Below, in pieces: positions 300 through 14,054 of a DNA stretch of 31,652 nucleotides (its first letter is position 1; the number at the start of each line of letters is the position of its first letter). The translations under genes were made by a program, and so were the position numbers. The notes under the pieces were generated by a model. It searched no databases. It saw only the letters and a list, made by a program, of their open reading frames with translations, and was not told the DNA's origin. This DNA comes from a virus: positions 1-31,652 of IMG/VR virus record IMGVR_UViG_3300012920_006008; one strand, given 5' to 3'.

Positions 300-326
300 A
301 AGAAGCTTAAAATGCTACAGCTTCTT
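300..326 (-). terminator. Second hairpin overlapping the ssb stop codon
   Basis: AAGAAGCT (300-307) and AGCTTCTT (319-326) are perfect 8-bp inverted arms around an 11-base loop that contains the last sense codons and part of the stop of ssb. On the minus strand its 3' arm is T-rich. Together with the GC-rich stem at 265-285 it makes a tandem pair of hairpins at the end of the ssb transcript. Its role is inferred from position only. Confidence 0.35.
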
Positions 327-672
327 GTTCCTTCTTGTGACGAGAAAGCTTTGTAATCTTTGAAAAGTTATTTACCCTAACCTTTAAAGAGTTATGCTTT
401 ACGCCATCCTTTTCCCAAGAATCATTCCTTAATGATCCTTCTACCATTACTAGATCACCCTTCTTAAAGGATTCACCAATAATTTCAGCACCAGTATCCC
501 ACGCCTCGCATGGAACAAAAGTGGTAATCTTATCTCTTTCACCATTTGCCTTTGTGTATTCCCTAGACACAGCAATAGTAAAATTAACCACAGAAGTCTT
601 CTTGCCGTTAGTATTAACAGCACGAACTTCTGGATCACGAGCAAGATTTCCGCGTAGAATATTAATATTCAT
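307..672 (-). CDS. ssb: Single-stranded DNA-binding protein
   Basis: A 121-aa OB-fold SSB that coats single-stranded DNA at the fork. The family pattern is clear: MNINILRGNLARDPEVR at the start, VVNFTIAVSREY, a TTFVPCEAWDTGAEII stretch, and KKGDLVMVEGSLRNDSW for the later strands. It is shorter than cellular SSBs (about 170-180 aa) because it has almost no disordered linker. The tail is EQEAVAF: an acidic-to-hydrophobic end with a terminal Phe, a degenerate version of the bacterial DDDIPF tip that recruits partners. The ATG is well supported by AGGAG 6 bases upstream. It has its own near-consensus promoter (712-740) and is followed by two hairpins, so it is probably transcribed alone and strongly, as expected for a protein needed in many copies. 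Confidence 0.92.
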   Translation of the reverse strand: MNINILRGNLARDPEVRAVNTNGKKTSVVNFTIAVSREYTKANGERDKITTFVPCEAWDTGAEIIGESFKKGDLVMVEGSLRNDSWEKDGVKHNSLKVRVNNFSKITKLSRHKKEQEAVAF

Positions 673-711: not shown

Positions 712-740
712 ATAATACATCATCCACACAATGATGTCAA
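712..740 (-). promoter_or_regulatory. Sigma70-type promoter for ssb
   Basis: On the minus strand TTGACA (740-735) is separated by exactly 17 bases from TATTAT (717-712). The -35 is a perfect match and the -10 matches TATAAT at 5 of 6. Predicted start of transcription is near 705, about 33 bases before the ssb ATG. The TGA stop of the upstream polymerase gene (739-737) lies inside the -35 box. The spacer end and -10, ATGATGTATTATA, match the promoter at 22695-22723 closely. Confidence 0.78.
718..736. repeat. Inverted repeat in the spacer of the ssb promoter
   Basis: CATCAT (718-723) and ATGATG (731-736) are perfect 6-bp arms around a 7-base centre. The dyad fills the whole spacer between the -35 and -10 boxes of the ssb promoter, a common place for a repressor or activator site. 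No protein is known to bind it; an operator is an inference. Confidence 0.4.
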
Positions 741-2350
741 GTTTTGGGTATAAATGCCTTTTCTACAATAAAAGAGTCTCCTGAACGATTCTTTTTACCT
801 TTCACAATTATAATATTGTTGTCAAATAAAACATTTCTGTATTTATTATAAGCCTCTGGAAAAAATATTACACTGTCAATGATCCCATAGCTGTCGCTTA
901 AAGAAACAAAAGCCATCTCTGATCCAGGATTTTTGCCAGATTTAGTTTTGGTAACACTAACACTGGTTACTTCACCACAAACGATCAGTTCATTTAATAA
1001 AGTATTCTTAAACTCTTTACAGTTGCAATTAGTCATACTTACATCGTACATATCTACTTTAGAGCAGGTTATGCTACATCCTAATATTTCATCTTCTGAA
1101 TCAGATATCCACTCTGCACTATCTTCTAAAGAATATGGAGGTTTTTCTAAAGAGTCAATTAGACCTCCAATAATTTTCTTTCTTCTAGAAATTAGCTTAT
1201 GTTCATGTAAAAGTTTATATAGACATTCATACAAATTTTTACACTTGTCTAGATGTTGTATCACAAAAGACGCTTCTTTTTTAGTTAATTCATTTATAAG
1301 ACTATACTCAAACAGCATAGATGTTCTAGTCTTTTTTAAGAAATCTAATCCACCACTTTTTATTAAAGCCTTAGCAGCTGTAGAATTTATATTATTAATT
1401 ACATGAAACAACATGGAACACCAATCTAAACTATTAATGTCTAGATTATTTTCCTCTACAGTGTTTACTAATTTTTTATATACGGATTTACCAAAGCCCT
1501 TAATATCTGTAAGACCAAAATAAATTTTCTTATTTTTCATGATAAAGAATTGATTTAAATTCCTGATATCAGGTACAGCAACATTAATGTCCATTTCATT
1601 CGCATTCTGCACTAATGCTTTGATCTCTGCTTTAGGATCGATTTTATCTTTAGCAAATCTTAGATAAGAAGCAAAAAAGATTTTAGGAAAATGAGCTTTA
1701 GTATAAGCAGAAAGATACGCATTCATTGCATAGCTGACCGCATGACTTTTATTAAAACTATATCTTTGGCTTTTTTCAATCCATCCAAATATTTCTTCTG
1801 CTTCATCATTGGCTACAATTTTTAATTTTTTAGCACCCTTGATAAACTTCTTTTTAAGTTTTGCCATTTCTTCGGGTTTCTTTTTACCAATAGCTTTTCT
1901 TAAATTGTCAGCTTCTTGCAGATTAAAACCAGCAATATTTTTAGCAATACGCATAGCTTGTTCTTGATAGATCATTTCTCCATACGTAGTTTTTAAACAA
2001 TCTTCTAAAGCAGGATGGTAGTAGTCTACTGATTCATCACCATTCTTTTTGTCTATATAGTGATTGCTAACACTTTTACCATCACGAACAGCTTCAAGGC
2101 ATCCCGGCCTAAGAATGGATATAAGTGCAGAAAGTTGTTCTATGTTTTCTGGTTTTAGTTTTTTAGACATAGATTTACCAAGTCTAGATTCTAATTGAAA
2201 ACAACCTTTTGTGTTGCCTTCAGAAATCAATTCCCAAGTTTTAGGACATTCCAAATTTATAGGACTATGAATAGGATCAAATTGAATTTTTAAATTCTCT
2301 TCATCCAAAACATCAAAAGAACAACCACAAGAATACTGATATTTTTTCAT
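737..2350 (-). CDS. dnaE: DNA polymerase III alpha subunit, C-terminal half (fingers, HhH, OB)
   Basis: A 537-aa protein equivalent to the second part of bacterial DnaE. GCFQLESR (49-56) matches the start of the fingers domain, LRKAIGKKKPEEMAK (150-164) and FNKSHAVSYA (199-208) are fingers motifs that contact the incoming nucleotide, FGLTDIKGFGKSVYKKLV (278-295) is the helix-hairpin-helix, and residues 456-537 form the OB fold. It has no palm, so no catalytic aspartates: these are in the gene at 3222-5096. Compared with cellular DnaE it lacks the C-terminal tau-binding domain, and no canonical QxxLF clamp motif is seen where E. coli has one. The first ~30 residues carry a Cys-Gly-Cys (8-10) not found in cellular DnaE. 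TAATG overlap with the exonuclease gene. The split leaves no conserved block missing, so both halves probably associate. Confidence 0.9.
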   Translation of the reverse strand: MKKYQYSCGCSFDVLDEENLKIQFDPIHSPINLECPKTWELISEGNTKGCFQLESRLGKSMSKKLKPENIEQLSALISILRPGCLEAVRDGKSVSNHYIDKKNGDESVDYYHPALEDCLKTTYGEMIYQEQAMRIAKNIAGFNLQEADNLRKAIGKKKPEEMAKLKKKFIKGAKKLKIVANDEAEEIFGWIEKSQRYSFNKSHAVSYAMNAYLSAYTKAHFPKIFFASYLRFAKDKIDPKAEIKALVQNANEMDINVAVPDIRNLNQFFIMKNKKIYFGLTDIKGFGKSVYKKLVNTVEENNLDINSLDWCSMLFHVINNINSTAAKALIKSGGLDFLKKTRTSMLFEYSLINELTKKEASFVIQHLDKCKNLYECLYKLLHEHKLISRRKKIIGGLIDSLEKPPYSLEDSAEWISDSEDEILGCSITCSKVDMYDVSMTNCNCKEFKNTLLNELIVCGEVTSVSVTKTKSGKNPGSEMAFVSLSDSYGIIDSVIFFPEAYNKYRNVLFDNNIIIVKGKKNRSGDSFIVEKAFIPKT

Positions 2351-3036
2351 TACTTAAACGAGTCCTTAAATTTAATATTAGCAGCCAATTTTCTATGTAA
2401 CTTCATAAATCTTACCATAATTTCCGCTGTGTCTCTAATATCTTTTACGGCATCATGAGCACCGTCTTTAGAGATACCAAAGTAATCTCTCAAAGAATCT
2501 AGTGTATAACTTTTTAATTCACTGTTCTGTTCAAACCAATAAAATACCAAATTCATTACATCTATTACATCTCTAGGATAAAATATATCTGTTTTACCTT
2601 CTTTGGTTACATTATCATATTTAACACTTAGCCTATCTATAATAGGTAGGTCAAATCTATATATGTTATATCCAGCAGCAATTGGTGCAGAGAACTTACT
2701 TTTTCTAGATGCTCTAGAATGATATTTAGAGAGATATTCTACAAACATTTTCCACGAGTGTTCCTGCGATGGATTGTTTCGCCACCTTTCCATAATATCT
2801 GCCTTAGAACAACCAGCGACCTTTGCATGAAAGTCTACTACATCTGTAGTATATTCAAAGTCAGGATCTTTAGCCAATGTCTCTGGTTTAAATTGTATAT
2901 TAAATTCAGAATTAGGAACAACCTCCAGCTTAATAGGATCCACAATAACAGAAGCCAGTTGTACTGGACTACAAGTATTTGGATCAACACCATCTGTTTC
3001 AAAATCAAAAACACAAATTTTATTATAATTAATCAT
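2350..3036 (-). CDS. dnaQ: DnaQ-like 3'-5' exonuclease (DEDDh)
   Basis: A 228-aa RNase-T/DnaQ-fold exonuclease, probably the proofreader of the adjacent polymerase. Motif I is FDFETDG with D11 and E13, motif II is GYNIYRFDLP with D129, and motif III is AHDAVKDIRDTAEIM with H194 and D199 (His-x4-Asp), so all DEDDh residues are present. It lies between the two polymerase halves: its start overlaps the end of the 63-aa gene by 8 bases and its TAA overlaps the ATG of the C-terminal polymerase half (TAATG). The order polymerase-N, small gene, exonuclease, polymerase-C suggests co-translation and assembly. Function in proofreading is inferred from this context; the exonuclease fold itself is clear. 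Confidence 0.9.
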   Translation of the reverse strand: MINYNKICVFDFETDGVDPNTCSPVQLASVIVDPIKLEVVPNSEFNIQFKPETLAKDPDFEYTTDVVDFHAKVAGCSKADIMERWRNNPSQEHSWKMFVEYLSKYHSRASRKSKFSAPIAAGYNIYRFDLPIIDRLSVKYDNVTKEGKTDIFYPRDVIDVMNLVFYWFEQNSELKSYTLDSLRDYFGISKDGAHDAVKDIRDTAEIMVRFMKLHRKLAANIKFKDSFK

Positions 3037-3220
3037 TTTTTTGTACCGTTATATCTTCGATAGGTTTGACCATAATTTTGTGATTAGTCTTAATATTTTG
3101 AGAATTTAACACTTTGCAACAACTAACTCTTTCGTCTGGGATTTTTTTAAGAACTCCCTCATTTAGATTGTTATCTATAGTAAATATAGTTCCCACTGAA
3201 ACTTCATGAAATTTTGGCAT
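3029..3220 (-). CDS. Small protein of unknown function, between polymerase halves
   Basis: A 63-aa protein not recognised as a known family. It is beta-rich by eye (FHEVSVGTIFTID, then KIMVKPIEDITVQK), with an adjacent Cys pair (residues about 34-35), and may be a small barrel. The ATG starts one base after the stop of the polymerase N-terminal gene and has GGAGAG a few bases upstream, inside that gene, which argues it is a real translated gene. Its end overlaps the exonuclease start by 8 bases. Lodged between polymerase-N and exonuclease, it is a candidate replisome accessory protein, but nothing in the sequence shows what it does. Confidence 0.65.
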   Translation of the reverse strand: MPKFHEVSVGTIFTIDNNLNEGVLKKIPDERVSCCKVLNSQNIKTNHKIMVKPIEDITVQKND

Positions 3221-3221
3221 T

Positions 3222-5096
3222 TTACTCTCCCTGTTTTAGTAAGTTTTGTATAGTCATAATTTTATCTAACATAGCCACACCAAGAATATCAAACTTAATA
3301 ATTCCAATAGATTCTAAGTCTTGCATCTCCATACCTGCTATCATTTGTTTATTTTTAGAATCATAGACCATAGGACACACTTGACTCAATGGCTCAGAAC
3401 TAATTGCGATCCCTGCTGCATGTTTTGATTGATTAGACTTAACACCCTCTAATCTTATAGCCTGTTCAAAACGTTTGGCAAGTGGACCTTGTAATTGTCC
3501 TTTTTTATCTATAGAACACCATTCTTTAATTTTATCTGAATTATTTTCTAATGTCCATCTGATAATCGAAGATTCTCCAGTAGTATCTTTCATTGTCTGT
3601 AAAGAATCAGCGATCTTAGCTTCATCAGGAATATTTTTAGTAATTTTATTCATCTCGTCAAACGATATGTTTCCATATACACGCAGTACATCCTTCAATG
3701 CACCCCGACCTTTAATAGTATTAAAAGTAATCATTTGAGAAACTTTATTTTCTCCATAGGTGTCTTTGATATATTGTATAATATCTTCACGTTTATTAAT
3801 AGGTACATCTACATCAATATCTGGCATCGAGACATGCTCTGCTGTATTACGTCCAGCATTATAGAATCTATCAAACATTAGGTTGTATTTTATAGGATCA
3901 ATGTTAGTGATACCAATTAAATAAGACACAAGACAACCAGCAGCACTACCTCTGCCAGGACCCGGTAGCCAGCTATTGTCACGAACATGATTCACGATGT
4001 CTTGCACAATTAGAAAGTAGCTAGAAAGGTCAGCGCCTTGTAGTACATCAAGTTCATATTTAATTCTATCTACATAAACGCCATGTTCAGACTCTGGTAT
4101 TTGTTTAGCTATTTTAGCTTTCCATCCATCTCTACATAATTGTCTTAAATACTCAGCGTCATCATAACCTTCAGGGCATGGAAATGGTGGCAGATTAGGT
4201 TTACTTAGAATATCGTATTCTTCACACATAGAATCTACCAAGTTAGTATTATCTATTTCTTCTTCGGTGTGCAGTTCTCTAATTTCTTCTTGTGATAAAA
4301 TATGAAAATTATCTGATGTAAAAAAACAACCCATAGGCACAGATTCATCTACGCTGAGTTTACGATTAATTTCTGGAAATGTAGTCTTAATATTATTACA
4401 CAATAATACTCTTTGATCTACAGCATCGCTTTTTCTACAATAGTGTGCATCTGGCGTACAAATAGTTTTTGTGTCTGTGAGATGAGCAAGCTCTCTGATA
4501 CAGTCTGTGAGGTGTGATTGAATTTCTAGATTTTCTTTGTCCATCAATTGTGATTCTAAAAAGAAATTTTCTTTACCAAAAATGTCTTTGTATTGATTAA
4601 TACAGTTTTTCCCTACTTTTTTCCAATCGGAAATAATAGTATCATTATCTACAAGTTTGTCAGCAAGAGTAGAACCTAAATGACCGCAGATACCTATCAT
4701 GTTTCCATCTATCATTTCACCTAGCTTTTTAAGATCTAATCTAGGTTTAAAGTAATAGTGTTCTGGCTTATTAGATTCTGAAACTACACGGACTAGATTT
4801 TTCCAACCCTCATAGTTTTTAGCTAGAACTAGAAAATGAGTAAGTGATCTATTTTCTTTTTCTTTAACAGTAGCATCACCATCAGATATGTATAACTCAC
4901 AACCCAATATGGGTTTAATGCCCTTTTTCTTCATAGCTGTATAGAATTTAATAGCCCCAGCTATATTACCATGATCAGTTAGGGCACAAGACTTTACTTC
5001 TATTTCTTCGCAGCGATCAGCAATTTGTTCTGGTTTGGATAACCCATCCAATAAACTGTACATACTGTGTACATGCAAAGGTATATATTTTTTCAT
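3222..5096 (-). CDS. dnaE: DNA polymerase III alpha subunit, N-terminal half (PHP, palm, thumb)
   Basis: A 624-aa protein matching the first half of DnaE. Residues 1 to about 270 are the PHP domain, with likely metal ligands H8, H10, D17, H42, E67, H87, H139, D216 and H218 all present. LPGPGRGSAAGCLVSYLIG (378-396) and MPDIDVDVP (424-432) are palm motifs with catalytic D426 and D428. SKHAAGIAIS (557-566) follows, and KFDILG carries the third catalytic aspartate, D603. The protein ends 21 residues later, in the loop that in E. coli joins palm to fingers; the fingers are encoded at 737-2350. Neither end of the break shows intein motifs. The next gene starts one base after the stop. The Shine-Dalgarno is weak (GGAATTT). 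Confidence 0.93.
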   Translation of the reverse strand: MKKYIPLHVHSMYSLLDGLSKPEQIADRCEEIEVKSCALTDHGNIAGAIKFYTAMKKKGIKPILGCELYISDGDATVKEKENRSLTHFLVLAKNYEGWKNLVRVVSESNKPEHYYFKPRLDLKKLGEMIDGNMIGICGHLGSTLADKLVDNDTIISDWKKVGKNCINQYKDIFGKENFFLESQLMDKENLEIQSHLTDCIRELAHLTDTKTICTPDAHYCRKSDAVDQRVLLCNNIKTTFPEINRKLSVDESVPMGCFFTSDNFHILSQEEIRELHTEEEIDNTNLVDSMCEEYDILSKPNLPPFPCPEGYDDAEYLRQLCRDGWKAKIAKQIPESEHGVYVDRIKYELDVLQGADLSSYFLIVQDIVNHVRDNSWLPGPGRGSAAGCLVSYLIGITNIDPIKYNLMFDRFYNAGRNTAEHVSMPDIDVDVPINKREDIIQYIKDTYGENKVSQMITFNTIKGRGALKDVLRVYGNISFDEMNKITKNIPDEAKIADSLQTMKDTTGESSIIRWTLENNSDKIKEWCSIDKKGQLQGPLAKRFEQAIRLEGVKSNQSKHAAGIAISSEPLSQVCPMVYDSKNKQMIAGMEMQDLESIGIIKFDILGVAMLDKIMTIQNLLKQGE

Positions 5097-5113: not shown

Positions 5114-6112
5114 TTATTCTGCACTTCCCGGAGCCTTGTAGTGTCCTATATTATAACCGGGAGCTTGATACTGGTCAATCACATTATCCATACCTTTTAT
5201 GCTTATATCATGTTTTATTTGTTCACATATAGTCATATTCTCGCCCATATTAGTTAATTGATCTTCTCTATATTCTACTATCGGTAAATGCTCTGAACCT
5301 TCATAAGTATTTTTGCCAAAATGACATAGCTTAGTGCATTTCCAGCTTTTATTAAGTTTTGGGTTTTGACTGTTTTTAATATCTTCAAATTTCTTTTTGA
5401 GCATCATCTCTACTTGAAATATATTAGCTTCAGTGAAATTTACAGAAAACATACCTCCATCATTAATAAAGTCAATAGACACCATTATATTATCGATGTC
5501 TGGATATAATTTTTTGATAGCATAATAATATAACATAAGCTGAGGATCGTTATGTAATTTACTTAATGTTTTTTCTTGACCTGTTGCCCAATCTAAACGT
5601 CTACCAGTTTTCCAATCAATAACTTCATAAGTATTGTCATTAACTTTAGTAATTAAATCTATCGTACCTTTAATAGATAGTTGACCCTCTAAGTGTCCTT
5701 CTTTAGTATCATAGCTATATTTAGCCCAAGGCTTATCAATTGTAATATCAAAATGTTGTTCAGGTTCTACGATCTCTCTGTTTCGAGGATCGAACATACC
5801 ATTACCATATTCTATAGCTTTGTAAACCCATTTGTCACAATCCTTAAAGTCTCTGTCTGTCCATTTGTGATGAGTAAATTGAGATGTATAATAGTGATAT
5901 ACTTGTTCATTAATTGTATTAAGATTATAGTTCGTAATATCAACAGGACCTATAATATCATCTTCAAAATATCTATTGTTGTTTTGCTGGTTTAGTTTAA
6001 TAAATGCTAATATCTCCAACACCTTATGAACAATAGTACCCTTATCTGCTTTTTTATTAGAGGGTGATCTTTGACCTAAATTGTATTCTATAAAATATTG
6101 CATAGGACACAT
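5114..6112 (-). CDS. RecB/Cas4-like PD-(D/E)XK nuclease
   Basis: A 332-aa nuclease of the PD-(D/E)XK RecB-type family, probably trimming DNA ends in replication or recombination. Visible are GTIVHKVLE with H29, KGTIDLI with D152, the catalytic EVIDWKTGRR with D166 and K168, and the following DPQLMLYYYAI helix (Q191 and tyrosines). Cysteines C2, C259, C263 and C296 resemble the one-plus-three arrangement of iron-sulphur nucleases such as AddB and Cas4, though the last spacing is unusually long. The coordinates use the first ATG (6112), but this starts only one residue before the CPMQYF motif, which in relatives is preceded by ~15 more residues; the frame is open upstream and encodes YIRSSSYGTHS. 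Translation may begin at ATT 6157-6155, 8 bases after an AAAGGA. Confidence 0.83.
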   Translation of the reverse strand: MCPMQYFIEYNLGQRSPSNKKADKGTIVHKVLEILAFIKLNQQNNNRYFEDDIIGPVDITNYNLNTINEQVYHYYTSQFTHHKWTDRDFKDCDKWVYKAIEYGNGMFDPRNREIVEPEQHFDITIDKPWAKYSYDTKEGHLEGQLSIKGTIDLITKVNDNTYEVIDWKTGRRLDWATGQEKTLSKLHNDPQLMLYYYAIKKLYPDIDNIMVSIDFINDGGMFSVNFTEANIFQVEMMLKKKFEDIKNSQNPKLNKSWKCTKLCHFGKNTYEGSEHLPIVEYREDQLTNMGENMTICEQIKHDISIKGMDNVIDQYQAPGYNIGHYKAPGSAE

Positions 6113-6150: not shown

Positions 6151-6741
6151 CTATAATGGTAATATTCCTTTATCTATTAGAAAGTCATGAATAATTTCGT
6201 TTTGCTTTCCAATAGTTAAGTCACCATTATTAATGACTAAATCAAAATTCAATGCGTCGTATTGACTAGCATCTAAAGCTGCCTCACTTGCATGTTCTGA
6301 ATTGTACGGATTTCTATTAAGTTTGATAACCAAACCACCAGCATTTTGAATAGCATCAACTTCGTTGGGAAATCTACAGTCTGCTATTACCGCTAGATCA
6401 GGTTTTTCTAAATTAATCTTTTTAATAGTGGCTCCAGCCCAAACGTCATGCTGTATTTTTCTAAACACATCAGTTCCTACATATTGCATAACTTCTCTGG
6501 CTGTCATCTTCTTATCTGTGTCAGGCCAATAACAATCTACCAATTCATTTTTAGAATCATCGTTACCATAACACTGATGATAAGTTAGTCCAAATATATT
6601 CATACATACATCTTTTTTTAAAGGATCAGCAAAATTATATATTTTACCTACTCCTAATCCACGATTTTCAAAAATGTTTTTAACAAATTCCGCAGATGTA
6701 GTTTTACCTGATTGTTTTCTACCAGCAAAAGCTATAATCAT
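6151..6741 (-). CDS. Deoxynucleoside monophosphate kinase (T4 gp1-like)
   Basis: A 196-aa P-loop kinase that phosphorylates dNMPs to dNDPs, supplying precursors from degraded host DNA or from dCMP-deaminase products. The Walker A is GRKQSGKTT (7-15). The family-specific blocks are MQYVGTDVFRKI (85-96) with the following VWA, and IADCRFPNEVDAI (119-131). Length is close to the usual phage enzyme (about 200-240 aa). The start overlaps the primase stop as ATGA. The gene's last codons contain AAAGGA, which could be the Shine-Dalgarno for the upstream-extended nuclease that follows. Together with RNR and dCMP deaminase it forms the nucleotide-supply set of this phage. Confidence 0.9.
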   Translation of the reverse strand: MIIAFAGRKQSGKTTSAEFVKNIFENRGLGVGKIYNFADPLKKDVCMNIFGLTYHQCYGNDDSKNELVDCYWPDTDKKMTAREVMQYVGTDVFRKIQHDVWAGATIKKINLEKPDLAVIADCRFPNEVDAIQNAGGLVIKLNRNPYNSEHASEAALDASQYDALNFDLVINNGDLTIGKQNEIIHDFLIDKGILPL

Positions 6742-7892
6742 ATAACACCTTTTATATATTCTTTAATTTGACTGTTTATTTCATCGGAGTCCATTTCCGC
6801 TACATCAGCCTTAGATATTTCTGGTACAAATATTCTGTAAGTATTTTGACATTTTTCTTTAATTTGTAATGCAGCTTTTCTTCCTGCATCATCATTGTCA
6901 GTCAATACTATTATAGTCATAGCTCCAGAAGAGTCTAACATAATCTTTTGTCTATCACTAAGTGCAGACCCAAAAATACCAACACTATTATGTATACCGT
7001 TTTCTTCCAACTTCCATACATTTCCAGGACTTTCTACTAAAATTACTATGCCTGTTTCTTGTATATGTTTTTGAGCAAACCAATAATTGTATAGAGAATT
7101 TTGACTTTTAAAATTAGCACTATGTTTCCATTTAGAATACAGATATTTCCTACGGTCTTCTGGACAATCTTTATCAGGACTATGGAAAGTACCGCACTTA
7201 TCACATTTATCAAATACGCTTCTACCTGTACAACCAATCATGTAATTATAATCTATATCATAGATAGGAACCACAACCCTATTGAACATCTCTCTATTAG
7301 GATTATCACACAATCCAACATCATACTTATCTAATATTTCTTTAGTAAAATTGCGATCAATATAATATTGAGATGGTATTTTTAGTAGTGGACGTATTTT
7401 GTCTCTAGTTAGACAATTCTCTGTACTTACTTTGCTAGTATTTTTTACATGATTAATAATATTTGTGAATTTGCTTTTATTTCTAGCTACTTTAGATACC
7501 TTAATATCATTTAGATCTTTCTTTAAAAAAGAAGTAATAAAGTCTATAGTCTCTTTAAAACTTGCAGTCTTATCACCTTCCTGAGCCCACTGATATTTTC
7601 TATTGGATAGCAGCCCTCTAACAAAACCTATAATAGATCCTTTAAAACATTTTTCGCATCCTTGGGTTCTACATTTCCAATTGCCTCTATAGTTGTCTCC
7701 TTGCACATATAGATTTAATGCGCCCTCATTATCACCTTCGTGAATAGGACAAGCCATGCTTATCATTTTACCATGATCTTTATATTCTAAATCAAAGTGA
7801 TCAAACAGTTCTTCTATATTATCACAAAGTTCGTCACAGACTACTTTTAATTTAGCCTGATCATTCAAACGGGATTTCTTGGTCATTAGCAT
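6738..7892 (-). CDS. dnaG: DnaG-like DNA primase (CHC2 zinc finger + Toprim)
   Basis: A 384-aa primase that makes RNA primers for the lagging strand. The N-terminal CHC2-type zinc finger has C48, H51, C74 and C79 (a further Cys at 82). The Toprim domain has ILVESPGN with E287 and IVLTDNDDAGR with D332 and D334, the metal-binding core. Between them a second Cys cluster, C230-x2-C233-x9-C243, sits in the basic catalytic region. It is shorter than bacterial DnaG (about 580-600 aa) and has no C-terminal helicase-binding domain. The chosen ATG has GAGG 6 bases upstream; the gene overlaps the end of the helicase gene by 32 bases, consistent with a helicase-primase pair. Confidence 0.9.
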   Translation of the reverse strand: MLMTKKSRLNDQAKLKVVCDELCDNIEELFDHFDLEYKDHGKMISMACPIHEGDNEGALNLYVQGDNYRGNWKCRTQGCEKCFKGSIIGFVRGLLSNRKYQWAQEGDKTASFKETIDFITSFLKKDLNDIKVSKVARNKSKFTNIINHVKNTSKVSTENCLTRDKIRPLLKIPSQYYIDRNFTKEILDKYDVGLCDNPNREMFNRVVVPIYDIDYNYMIGCTGRSVFDKCDKCGTFHSPDKDCPEDRRKYLYSKWKHSANFKSQNSLYNYWFAQKHIQETGIVILVESPGNVWKLEENGIHNSVGIFGSALSDRQKIMLDSSGAMTIIVLTDNDDAGRKAALQIKEKCQNTYRIFVPEISKADVAEMDSDEINSQIKEYIKGVI

Positions 7893-9324
7893 TTTCGTCC
7901 TCTACAACAAAGCCATCATCTTTATTATTACTATTATTCATTAATTCCAATTTAGTTTTACCTTCGGTAATTTTAGCACACCACCCCTTCATATGACAAT
8001 TTACATAATCGTTGTCATCAAGACCTCCACCGTGTCTGCTAATCAAAGGAACTAATTTACGATTACCGTTATCTGGCCCATCTTCAGCAATCTCTTCCGG
8101 TGTTTTACGTTTAAAAATACTGAAATTACTACATAGCCAAATAATTCTATCACTACCACTAGCTGTATCTGTAGTTTCTTTTGTTATGCCATCCCTATTT
8201 AGCTGGATAAATGCAACAATAGGAACTTTGTATTTAGTTGCAAAATTGTGCAGCTGAGTCATCATGAAACCAAGCACCTGATATTCTTTCATATCTTGAC
8301 TCATACCTTGGGTATCCATGAGTTTTAAATAATCATAAAATATCACACAGTCTTTTGCTGTACCATCTTCATTTAGCCCTACTTCTTTTAGTAGCCATCT
8401 ACGCATAATAGATAATTGATCTTCAAAAGATTTACCTGCAATAGATTTATAATAAAGATTAGTCTTTTTGAGTGATTCTACAGCCTCGCTAACTTTTATA
8501 GATTTTGTAGGTATATCAGCAAACTTCCCAGTTTCAATATGGTTGATTTCAATTTCTGTCATCATAGCCAATATTCTGTTAATATGATCTTCCTTAGTCA
8601 TCTCTGTATCCATATTTAATACAGGAATTTGTAGCTTATTAGCAATATGAAAACCCATATTATCAGACAATAACGTTTTGCCTGTTTTAGGTCTAGCCGC
8701 AATTACATTAACCGTACTACGTCTTAATCCACCACCAATAGCTTGATCATATACTGGGAAACCTGTGGGAATACCAACTTGATCTACTTTGTTATTAATT
8801 AGATCGTCTAAATACTCATCTAGTTCATCGCCTATAGACACAGGATTATTATCTACGTCATTAAGCAGGTTTGTGAAATCAAAGATAGTATCTTCTGCAA
8901 GACTTAGAATAGAGCCTATAGATTCATTACCTGTAACATCTAATATTTTATCTTGTGCTTCTCCTAATTGATCTCTTAGTAATCTAGCTATTTCTAGTTT
9001 TCTAACTTTGGCTGCAAACTTTCTTACATTTTCTAAATTTACAGGAAAATCAAGAATAGCTTTAAGATGTTGTGCCTCATCTTTTTTATCAAAGGCATGT
9101 GACAGTCCTATCTCTTGAGCCGATGAAAATATGGAGGCCACATCTATATTAATAGACTGTTCTTTATCAAATATATTTTTAATACATTGATATATAGTCT
9201 TATTACTATCTACAGTAAAAGAAGTGTCTTGTATGATGTCTGCTATATCAAGATATGCATCTTCTCCATACTTGCAGACACCAGCCAAAACTGCTCTTTC
9301 AGCAGCTGTATCACACAAAATCAT
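7861..9324 (-). CDS. dnaB: Replicative DNA helicase, DnaB-like
   Basis: A 487-aa hexameric fork helicase with both DnaB domains. The N-terminal helical domain starts at TAAERAVLAGVCKYG and ends near residue 150. The RecA-like domain has GGGLRRSTVNVIAARPKTGK with Walker A at 210-217, the catalytic DTEM with E241, Walker B FYDYL (329-333), and AFIQLNRDG (371-379) with the sensor Gln. RIIWLCSNF and LISRHGGG (428-434) cover the later motifs, including the candidate arginine finger R430. The C-terminus is an acidic, Asn-rich tail ending DQEIPFE, similar to the tip of bacterial SSB. The stop region overlaps the primase start by 32 bases, and the start shares one base with the preceding zinc-ribbon gene (TAATG). 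Confidence 0.93.
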   Translation of the reverse strand: MILCDTAAERAVLAGVCKYGEDAYLDIADIIQDTSFTVDSNKTIYQCIKNIFDKEQSINIDVASIFSSAQEIGLSHAFDKKDEAQHLKAILDFPVNLENVRKFAAKVRKLEIARLLRDQLGEAQDKILDVTGNESIGSILSLAEDTIFDFTNLLNDVDNNPVSIGDELDEYLDDLINNKVDQVGIPTGFPVYDQAIGGGLRRSTVNVIAARPKTGKTLLSDNMGFHIANKLQIPVLNMDTEMTKEDHINRILAMMTEIEINHIETGKFADIPTKSIKVSEAVESLKKTNLYYKSIAGKSFEDQLSIMRRWLLKEVGLNEDGTAKDCVIFYDYLKLMDTQGMSQDMKEYQVLGFMMTQLHNFATKYKVPIVAFIQLNRDGITKETTDTASGSDRIIWLCSNFSIFKRKTPEEIAEDGPDNGNRKLVPLISRHGGGLDDNDYVNCHMKGWCAKITEGKTKLELMNNSNNKDDGFVVEDENANDQEIPFE

Positions 9325-9689: not shown

Positions 9690-10170
9690 TACGTAACCCC
9701 TTTGATCGTTGAATAGAAATTAAAATATCTGATAAATTTTTTAGAGATGTTGCTAAGTAAGTTAGTCTGTCCATACGTTGTCGTGCATATTTCTTTATCC
9801 TACTTAATTTGTGTGCTCTTTCATTGTGTTTAATTGCTTGTGAAGATTTTTCTAAATAACCATACCCATTATAATTATTAATATCATCAGCGATAACGTC
9901 TTTGATAGTTTCTTCAGCCCAATTAACTCTAGCAAGTTCTCTATTTAGGGTTCTCTGTACATGGAAGCTAAACTGTGCTAGTCTATAGGCTATTTGCCCA
10001 CAGTCTTCTGGTGTAGTTTTTTCTAATACATCTCTGCTCATTGTTAAATATTTTTGTAGTTCAGCTTCTGGTAAAACCTCTTCCATATATGTAGGCATAC
10101 CAATACGATTCTCATACTCATCTAAGAGTTTATCCCAGGTTTCTAATTCTTCTTTAGTAGTTTTATTCAT
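9682..10170 (-). CDS. Helical protein of unknown function
   Basis: A 162-aa protein that I do not recognise. It appears nearly all alpha-helical, with heptad-like leucines in the C-terminal half (KLSRIKKYARQRMDRLTYLA) that could form a coiled coil, and no metal-binding or nucleotide-binding motif. It overlaps both neighbours by 8 bases, between the Vsr-like nuclease and the zinc-ribbon gene upstream of the helicase, so it is clearly part of the replication operon. A structural or loader role is possible but unsupported. Confidence 0.65.
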   Translation of the reverse strand: MNKTTKEELETWDKLLDEYENRIGMPTYMEEVLPEAELQKYLTMSRDVLEKTTPEDCGQIAYRLAQFSFHVQRTLNRELARVNWAEETIKDVIADDINNYNGYGYLEKSSQAIKHNERAHKLSRIKKYARQRMDRLTYLATSLKNLSDILISIQRSKGLRNG

Positions 10171-10570
10171 TAGTAATTCTTTTCTTCCAATCTTCTATTT
10201 TTTCATTATATGGCAACTCAATATAATCTATGCCATTAATAGCACACCATTCTTTTTTTGCTTGATCTCGTTTCTTATGTTTTACAAAACCTATCATGTC
10301 TTTATGGTAGAATCTAGTAAATTTATAATGTTGTTCACCATGTACTTCTATACATTTTTTATTTAAGGGCAAATAAAAATCTAATATTAAACGCTCAGTT
10401 CTACGCAAAGGAATAGTAACTTCTTCTAATATCTGCAATGTAGGAAAACATTCTTTTATTAATTCTCTAGCCTGCAAATGAAAACTAGATTTATTATCAT
10501 AAGAAGCATGAGCAATACCACCCGTTAACTTCCAATGATGATAGTTTCCATCTAGGTCTTTGACTTGCAT
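10163..10570 (-). CDS. Vsr-like/PD-(D/E)XK-fold endonuclease
   Basis: A 135-aa protein with the core of the Vsr-like nuclease fold: ERLILDFYLP with D64, then KCIEVHGEQHYKF with E75, H77, Q80 and H81, then a basic helix KKRDQAKKEWCAINGIDYIE that ends in the last core strand. The D...ExHGxxH pattern is the catalytic centre of very-short-patch-repair and DUF559-type endonucleases. The N-terminal 30 residues contain several His and aromatic residues. It overlaps RecA by 19 bases, which suggests recombination or repair rather than a mobile homing enzyme, but substrate cannot be read from the sequence. Confidence 0.72.
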   Translation of the reverse strand: MQVKDLDGNYHHWKLTGGIAHASYDNKSSFHLQARELIKECFPTLQILEEVTIPLRRTERLILDFYLPLNKKCIEVHGEQHYKFTRFYHKDMIGFVKHKKRDQAKKEWCAINGIDYIELPYNEKIEDWKKRITNE

Positions 10571-13122: not shown

Positions 13123-13479
13123 TCATGTCCATTTAGGTTTGTATTTAGGTTTTGCCATTCGTGACATACCTTTAGGTAATTCTTTTGTCAATTCATCTTT
13201 AAGTTTATCATCTTGATATTTTGTATGCTTTTTATGTAATGCCATTTTATGGTCTTCACTCATCTGATCTCTATTTCTATTAGCTAAATCACCAAGTGTT
13301 TTTAATTCACTGTCTGATTTTTTAACAGAACTATTGATAGTGAGCATGTCTTCCATATAGTATCTCTGACAGGTAGATCTGCAATTTTGACATTTGATCT
13401 TTTCTTGATAGTCTCTTATAGTAAAAAACTTCTCGAAAGATTTATTGCACTTATTACAGAAATACGTATAATTAGGCAT
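13123..13479 (-). CDS. FmdB-type zinc-ribbon protein
   Basis: A 118-aa protein starting at an ATG that overlaps the HNH gene's TAA (TAATG). I chose this start rather than one 33 bases upstream because FmdB-type proteins begin MPxYxYxC, as here (MPNYTYFCNKCNKSFEKFF). The ribbon has C8, C11, C30 and C33 (CxxC...IKCQNC). The rest is a charged helical tail (HKMALHKKHTKYQDDKL) ending in a basic, Pro-rich stretch. FmdB-like proteins are annotated as regulatory but their role is unproved; in phages they are common small genes. Confidence 0.7.
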   Translation of the reverse strand: MPNYTYFCNKCNKSFEKFFTIRDYQEKIKCQNCRSTCQRYYMEDMLTINSSVKKSDSELKTLGDLANRNRDQMSEDHKMALHKKHTKYQDDKLKDELTKELPKGMSRMAKPKYKPKWT

Positions 13480-14054
13480 TATGTTATTAAATCTCCGACA
13501 TACAATTTCCATTCATTAGGAATATCTGATCTTATAGTAAGCAGCTGATGATTTACATGCAAGTACTTTTTTGTTTTGTGTGGAATATATGGTTGATTTT
13601 TGAGCTTCATCCCTGATTGTTGTACGGTTTTATTGCCTTTTTTAGCATTGCATTTATAGCAAGCAGTTACTATATTCGTCCAACTGGTTGCAGATTTTCT
13701 ACAATGAGGCCATTTAGATTTTGGTATTACATGATCATATGTTAGCTGACTAATTGGAAATTTATCCCCACAATATTGACAGATATAATCATCTCTAATA
13801 AAAAGATTCCTACGAGAAAACACTACAGGTTGACCTATTAGTTTAAAATATTTAGTAGTTCTAACCACAGCAGGTATCCTACAGTGTCCTTTTGCACCAA
13901 TTACCTTGTCGTCTTTGTAGTGATCTATAATTTCTATACCAGAATATAAAGAATGAGTATATCTAAATGACCAAATCATAGCTTTTCTCCAACCGATTAT
14001 ACCGATTGGAGAATAGTCAGCATTTAAAACTAAACAATCTTCATGATTTATCAT
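13479..14054 (-). CDS. HNH endonuclease
   Basis: A 191-aa HNH nuclease. The beta-beta-alpha metal site is CQYCGDKFPISQLTYDHVIP with C92, C95, D107 and H108, then NIVTACYKCNAKKGNKT with N127, C132, C135 and N136. The two CxxC pairs make the zinc knuckle that frames the site. The N-terminus (LNADYSPIGIIGWRKAMIW) and RIPAVVRTTKYFK are typical of stand-alone HNH proteins found in cyanobacteria and phages rather than group I intron enzymes. It overlaps PhoH by ATGA and the zinc-ribbon gene by one base. It is fully integrated in the operon, so a role in DNA processing is as likely as homing. Confidence 0.85.
   Translation of the reverse strand: MINHEDCLVLNADYSPIGIIGWRKAMIWSFRYTHSLYSGIEIIDHYKDDKVIGAKGHCRIPAVVRTTKYFKLIGQPVVFSRRNLFIRDDYICQYCGDKFPISQLTYDHVIPKSKWPHCRKSATSWTNIVTACYKCNAKKGNKTVQQSGMKLKNQPYIPHKTKKYLHVNHQLLTIRSDIPNEWKLYVGDLIT

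Follow-up and report, generated by a model that had tools for sequence, protein, structure and literature searches.

Gene organization and conservation of a split DnaE locus

DnaE, the alpha subunit of DNA polymerase III (Pol III), is encoded in two pieces in the virus record IMGVR_UViG_3300012920_006008 of IMG/VR, of which we analyzed positions 1 to 31,652; this whole stretch of 31,652 nucleotides is referred to below as the window. The original prediction, made from the letters of the sequence, held that two polymerase halves flank a 63-amino-acid (aa) gene and a gene for a DEDDh exonuclease, and all four open reading frames (ORFs) were found on the minus strand in this arrangement (Table 1). 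The four genes had been described as overlapping or 1 base apart, and the measured junctions agree: along the operon, a 1-base gap separates the N-half from the small ORF, the small ORF overlaps the exonuclease by 8 bases, and the exonuclease overlaps the C-half by 1 base. The overlapping start and stop codons suggest that the chains may be co-translated, as had also been proposed.

We scanned IMG/VR with several queries and obtained 263 loci in which both halves occur together with the exonuclease; they contain 144 distinct N-halves, and some of the loci are stretches of one contig that overlap. The lineage is thus a large one, made up of uncultured phages from water. The predicted order of N-half, small gene, exonuclease, and C-half recurs throughout (263/263, a similar small ORF being found at the same place in most relatives). 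The halves always lie in different ORFs, so the single polypeptide of a DnaE-type polymerase is replaced by separate ORFs in every exonuclease-bearing relative, and a one-piece polymerase beside this exonuclease was seen in none of the 263 loci. Because all of these loci share the break and the order, the split is not due to chance or to a sequencing error, and an assembly error is rejected on the same grounds. Where both could be placed, the C-half start overlaps the exonuclease stop codon in about 85% of loci. Among the loci listed, almost all of those long enough to show them retain the upstream PD-(D/E)XK nuclease gene and the downstream gene for a single-strand DNA-binding protein (SSB). 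We judged a polyprotein made by frameshifting through the overlaps to be unlikely; the junctions range from overlap to gap.

The observations named beforehand as speaking against a true split included halves joined in one frame and a full-length DnaE elsewhere in the phage. The former was seen in no relative of the split group, and no second Pol III alpha was present in 12 long contigs (138 to 233 kb). In each of these 12 contigs, the split locus carries the sole Pol III alpha and the sole RNase_T-type exonuclease, and neither a family A nor a family B polymerase was found, although these contigs are possibly not complete. A weak hint at the host comes from one relative, which lies in a contig binned as Flavobacteriales.

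Table 1. Features of the window and of related loci (L numbers denote relatives)
Feature	Position	Strand	Evidence
DnaE N-half, PHP and palm/thumb, 624 aa	3222..5096	-	ORF call, Pfam, NCBIfam
Small protein, 63 aa, predicted small SH3/Tudor-like beta barrel	3029..3220	-	ORF call, structure prediction
DEDDh 3'-5' exonuclease, 228 aa	2350..3036	-	Pfam RNase_T, invariant residues
DnaE C-half, CGCxF...C stretch and fingers with FNKSH, HhH, and OB, 537 aa	737..2350	-	Pfam, NCBIfam
PD-(D/E)XK nuclease, conserved neighbor upstream of N-half	5114..6112	-	Pfam, neighborhood comparison
SSB, conserved neighbor downstream of C-half	307..672	-	Pfam, neighborhood comparison
dNMP kinase, primase (Toprim), and DnaB-type helicase, remainder of the conserved replication operon	6151..9324	-	Pfam
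Homing/HNH endonuclease genes in the replication region of the window	10163-10570 and 13479-14054		
HNH-type endonuclease gene exactly between N-half and small gene	L114:2130-2813, also L117		
Apparent two-part intein, N-half broken between PGPGRG and S	L137:2071-5131, also L119, L138, L298, L304		
Contiguous intein in DnaE C-half, after RPG, with HNH_2 match	L035:8726-11092		
Contiguous LAGLIDADG intein in PD-(D/E)XK nuclease gene	L156:1302-3242		
Interrupted N-half start, loci include	L024, L026, L047, L050, L069, L094-L098, L100, L134, L137, L147, L240, L248, L281, L298, L310, L312, L316		

The break falls between palm and fingers

The N-half contains PHP and a complete DNA_pol3_alpha domain (Pfam profile positions 1-260 of 260), while the C-half enters DNA_pol3_finger at profile position 23 and continues through HHH_6 and OB. 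On TIGR00594, the NCBIfam model of the alpha subunit, the N-half covers positions 1-573 and the C-half covers positions 583-1022; only 9 model columns are left uncovered, in keeping with the claim that no conserved block is lost at the break. In Thermus aquaticus numbering, the N-half alignment runs to residue 636 and the C-half resumes at residue 646 (587 in E. coli numbering). The third catalytic Asp, D603, is 21 residues from the end of the N-half, as had been noted. We take the E. coli palm to end near residue 560, which would place the break just inside the fingers, in the loop after their first helix. The break thus separates palm from fingers as predicted, but it lies slightly within the finger domain, near its beginning, and not exactly at the border. 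Across the two chains, the features of a DnaE-type family C polymerase are all present: PHP, the PDIDxD core and the third Asp, FNKSH fingers, HhH, and an OB domain C-terminal to HhH.

The original prediction set this break apart from that of cyanobacterial DnaE, and we reached the same view. The match to NF005616, which we take to be the model of the cyanobacterial C-piece, begins only at C-half residue 198, at the FNKSH motif (residues 199-203), about 170 residues downstream of the break; hence, the cyanobacterial break is elsewhere. Cyanobacterial DnaE is also encoded by two genes, but it is broken at FNKSH and joined by protein trans-splicing, whereas in the window FNKSH is intact within the C-half. 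There was no intein match among the window proteins, in line with the reported lack of intein residues at the break, and an intein at this position was rejected, since the same Pfam library detects inteins elsewhere in the relatives. Rfam matched neither a group I intron nor any other RNA element in the window, and it matched none in seven insertion-bearing relatives, although these models can miss diverged introns. In being encoded by two adjacent ORFs with no splicing element, the enzyme resembles the genes in pieces of T4-type phages, such as 43A/43B, nrdA of Aeh1, and gp39/gp60. For those, a homing endonuclease at the break is the likely cause, but the window has no endonuclease at its break; among the relatives examined, one is found there only in L114, L117, and duplicate loci.

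Active sites are intact in the N-half and in the exonuclease

Using the PHP active-site pattern HHDHEH[C/H]DH (PMC12926913), we found the metal site of the window N-half to be complete (H8, H10, D17, H42, E67, H87, H139, D216, and H218). All nine residues are present in 88 of 95 relatives, and the other 7 N-halves appear to belong to a class interrupted by a stop codon, described below, in which the true start was not read. The polymerase's three catalytic Asp residues (D426, D428, and D603) show no variation among 101 N-halves. The exonuclease has the DEDDh catalytic residues expected of a DnaQ/epsilon enzyme, and D11, E13, D129, H194, and D199 are invariant in 90/90 exonucleases. Since the PHP metal-site residues and the exonuclease catalytic residues are both intact, the phage appears, from sequence, to carry two potential proofreading sites. 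The C-terminal tail of the exonuclease is also conserved (KFKxSF-like); in DnaQ/epsilon, the C-terminal part is what contacts the PHP of alpha and the clamp. The closest solved relatives of the exonuclease, all with low scores, are ExoI, entries named exodeoxyribonuclease III, and the PolC exonuclease.

The C-half begins with about 28 extra residues that contain an invariant CGCxF...C motif (Cys8, Cys10, and Cys35 are invariant among relatives) and are absent from the one-piece sister polymerase discussed below. This stretch is predicted to form a small beta structure with a predicted local distance difference test (pLDDT) score of about 85 and possibly binds metal, though it provides just three Cys itself. 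The model of the whole C-half has a mean pLDDT of 90.6, and a fold search with it matches DnaE structures. The chain ends 14 residues past the OB match, with no recognizable C-terminal (tau-binding) domain; some bacterial DnaE proteins are likewise truncated. The 63-aa protein is predicted with a pLDDT of 90; a fold search with it gave no match below an E value of 0.1, and 12 of 55 orthologues matched phrog_2183, a phage family of unknown function.

Comparison with known split polymerases

The prediction had allowed that the split might already be known in phages. This holds for two-gene DnaE as such, which is annotated in several phages, but not for the arrangement with the exonuclease: homologues of the latter were found in the phage collection only in six Bacteroides phages (about 27% identity), and in the one examined, DAC19, the homologue adjoins a terminase gene and not a polymerase. 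In Microbacterium cluster EF phages, a two-gene Pol III alpha (AnnaSerena gp56/57) has been noted as unusual (PMC7302621). These phages and the Gordonia phages Terapin and LilyPad have a two-gene DnaE like that of the window, but their break lies between PHP and the polymerase domain instead of between palm and fingers, with no exonuclease between the genes. Closer in layout is Rossellomorea phage phiT1 (PV767480), two genes of which are annotated as "DNA polymerase III subunit alpha"; its DnaE is broken in the same loop as here, and a 49-aa gene separates the halves (gp20/gp19/gp18). It differs in showing only about 33% identity and in having no exonuclease in the genome and no CGC stretch. 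As a query against viral contigs, the phiT1 N-half gave no match with its own patterns; a profile scan recovered one close relative, L184.

Among family B polymerases, gene 43 of Aeromonas phages 25 and 44RR likewise yields a replicative phage polymerase from two adjacent genes, 43A and 43B, without splicing, and the halves from phage 25 co-purify as an active polymerase (PMC2988022). Besides the difference in family, an endonuclease gene or untranslated spacer separates 43A from 43B, compared to a small protein and an exonuclease here. Physical association of an exonuclease with a family C polymerase is known from PolC, where it is located inside PHP, and from Bacteroidetes DnaE1, where it is fused to the PHP N terminus (PMC3919608); in the window, it is a separate gene between the halves. 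Nor does the rest of the window polymerase have the PolC layout, since its PHP is uninterrupted and OB is at the end of the C-half. A search of the open-access literature found no description of this lineage or of an exonuclease-between order. Two-gene phage Pol III alpha is thus already known, and the palm/finger split with an exonuclease between the halves is a new variant.

A one-piece sister has the same operon

In a maximum likelihood tree, the split group adjoins a one-piece polymerase, L243 (from the same contig as L340), with bootstrap/SH-aLRT (Shimodaira-Hasegawa-like approximate likelihood ratio test) support of 100/99, and is not adjacent to the split polymerase of phiT1 and L184; given the long branches, its precise position is less secure than these values suggest. 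A common origin of all split polymerases, including that of phiT1, was rejected when they were constrained to one clade (approximately unbiased test, P = 0.003). The L340/L341 operon has the order helicase, primase, dNMP kinase, PD-(D/E)XK nuclease, one-piece DnaE, and SSB, the same as in the split group, and the RNase_T exonuclease was not found in the L340 and L341 contigs (47.9 and 131.7 kb). Because the one-piece sister shares the operon order and lacks such an exonuclease, the split and the exonuclease appear together. The simplest history is that the operon already existed when its polymerase gene broke open between palm and fingers, with the exonuclease and small gene coming to occupy the gap.

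A separate break was seen in Bacillus phages Jayan (L169) and PS1 (L168), which have very similar DnaE proteins: that of PS1 is in one piece, and that of Jayan is interrupted near residue 410 with a 76-aa ORF. The Jayan break is recent.

A model for the two-chain polymerase

We consider it probable that the halves reassemble non-covalently into a replicative core with the exonuclease as its proofreader and that the split was gained alongside the exonuclease. According to this model, the two halves, made from one operon, would be the phage's own replicative polymerase core. Each would fold by itself, and the two would then associate non-covalently at a position that other DnaE enzymes span with a short loop, just past the first helix behind the palm. 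The N-half would bring the three catalytic Asp residues and PHP, and the C-half would bring the fingers that bind deoxynucleoside triphosphates, HhH, and OB. Judging by position and conservation, the exonuclease would be a proofreading subunit acting in trans, like DnaQ/epsilon, to which the intact PHP site may add a second activity, and the small barrel protein would be a minor accessory or a passenger. The split would have arisen in the operon of this lineage, with the one-piece version surviving in the sister. A stronger form, in which the exonuclease, perhaps with the small barrel, binds at the break and keeps the palm and finger chains together, so that assembly depends on the proofreader and the CGCxF stretch is the docking surface, strikes us as conceivable but rather unlikely.

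Several observations weigh against this model. In a few relatives (L039, L045, L068, L136, L139, and L142), 1 to 3.6 kb of unrelated genes lie between the exonuclease and the C-half, and tight co-translation is therefore not essential. A beta clamp was not found with Pfam in the 12 contigs of 138 to 233 kb, possibly incomplete, and no canonical clamp-binding motif was recognized by eye; processivity is thus unexplained. Finally, no DnaQ/epsilon is more than a distant relative of the exonuclease, which could have a different function.

In the likeliest of the alternatives, the halves form a polymerase whose proofreading falls to the PHP site, and the exonuclease, no more than a lodger in the operon, acts in recombination, repair, or breakdown of host DNA. 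The intact PHP metal site in most members would fit such a division of labor, as would the low-scoring resemblance of the exonuclease to other DEDD nucleases as well as to that of PolC, with no clamp- or alpha-binding motif shown. We nevertheless regard it as unlikely, given the constant place of the gene between the halves in 263 loci, its absence from the one-piece sister, and its being the sole RNase_T-type enzyme found in the 12 long contigs. Many phages depend on host replication enzymes, and a split gene could accordingly be a decayed polymerase in a phage that uses the host replicase. The failure to find a clamp or another polymerase family would suit such decay, which is very improbable in view of catalytic residues that are all invariant across aligned relatives, inside a full replication operon. 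Ligation of the halves after translation, by an unrecognized split intein or other joining, is scarcely credible: inteins are common in the group (two-part in the L137 N-half and contiguous in the L035 C-half), but a library able to find them gives no match at the window break, and the new N terminus of the C-half is the conserved CGCxF stretch.

If the two-chain model is correct, the catalytic core of a family C polymerase tolerates a permanent cut between the palm, which carries out the chemistry, and the fingers, which hold the nucleotide. The split would be fixed over a large and diverse phage group, with a one-piece before-state in the same operon at hand. How split replicases assemble, how accurate they are, and how they evolve could then be tested directly, and the break would be a natural place at which to divide Pol III in two-part constructs. 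Under this model, half-length phage genes annotated as DNA polymerase III alpha need not be fragments.

Inteins, endonucleases, and an interrupted PHP start in relatives

Homing endonucleases and inteins are frequent at the split-polymerase locus of relatives (Table 1), and T4-type phages offer earlier examples of genes split by such elements (PMC2988022). The L114 and L137 endonucleases were recognized from their sequence pattern by eye and not by Pfam; in L137, the only locus of its type in which the sequence was inspected, a 283-aa putative endonuclease ORF lies between the intein parts. The inserts between the exonuclease and the C-half carry a membrane protein gene, joined in L039 and L045 by ThyX-like and prepilin-like genes.

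A stop codon interrupts the beginning of the N-half in 33 loci (19 distinct sequences), lying inside the PHP metal motif directly after ...PLHVHS; the window N-half has the normal sequence here. Coding resumes 8 to 11 nt later than normal, with the remainder in any of the three frames. In the upstream peptide, the P, L, and H codons vary while the amino acids are constant; since this variation is synonymous, the peptide is still selected as protein. The interruption is scattered over the tree, with at least 7 changes forced by well-supported branches. An independent restart at a downstream ATG, GTG, or TTG could in principle produce the remainder, but no single start codon is common to all interrupted loci. 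In every case, a skip of 5 to 8 nt from the Ser codon (TCT/TCC) to TCT, TCA, ACT, GCT, or GCC restores the normal protein exactly, which makes the interruption a candidate for a short ribosome-bypass site. In the bypass of T4 gene 60, the stop codon is beside the take-off codon, and the element is linked to a homing endonuclease (PMC5009743). The interrupted PHP start resembles T4 mobA/gene 60 in having a stop codon next to the putative take-off codon and, in 8 of the 33 loci, a match to the HNH-type endonuclease of L137 upstream of the interrupted start.

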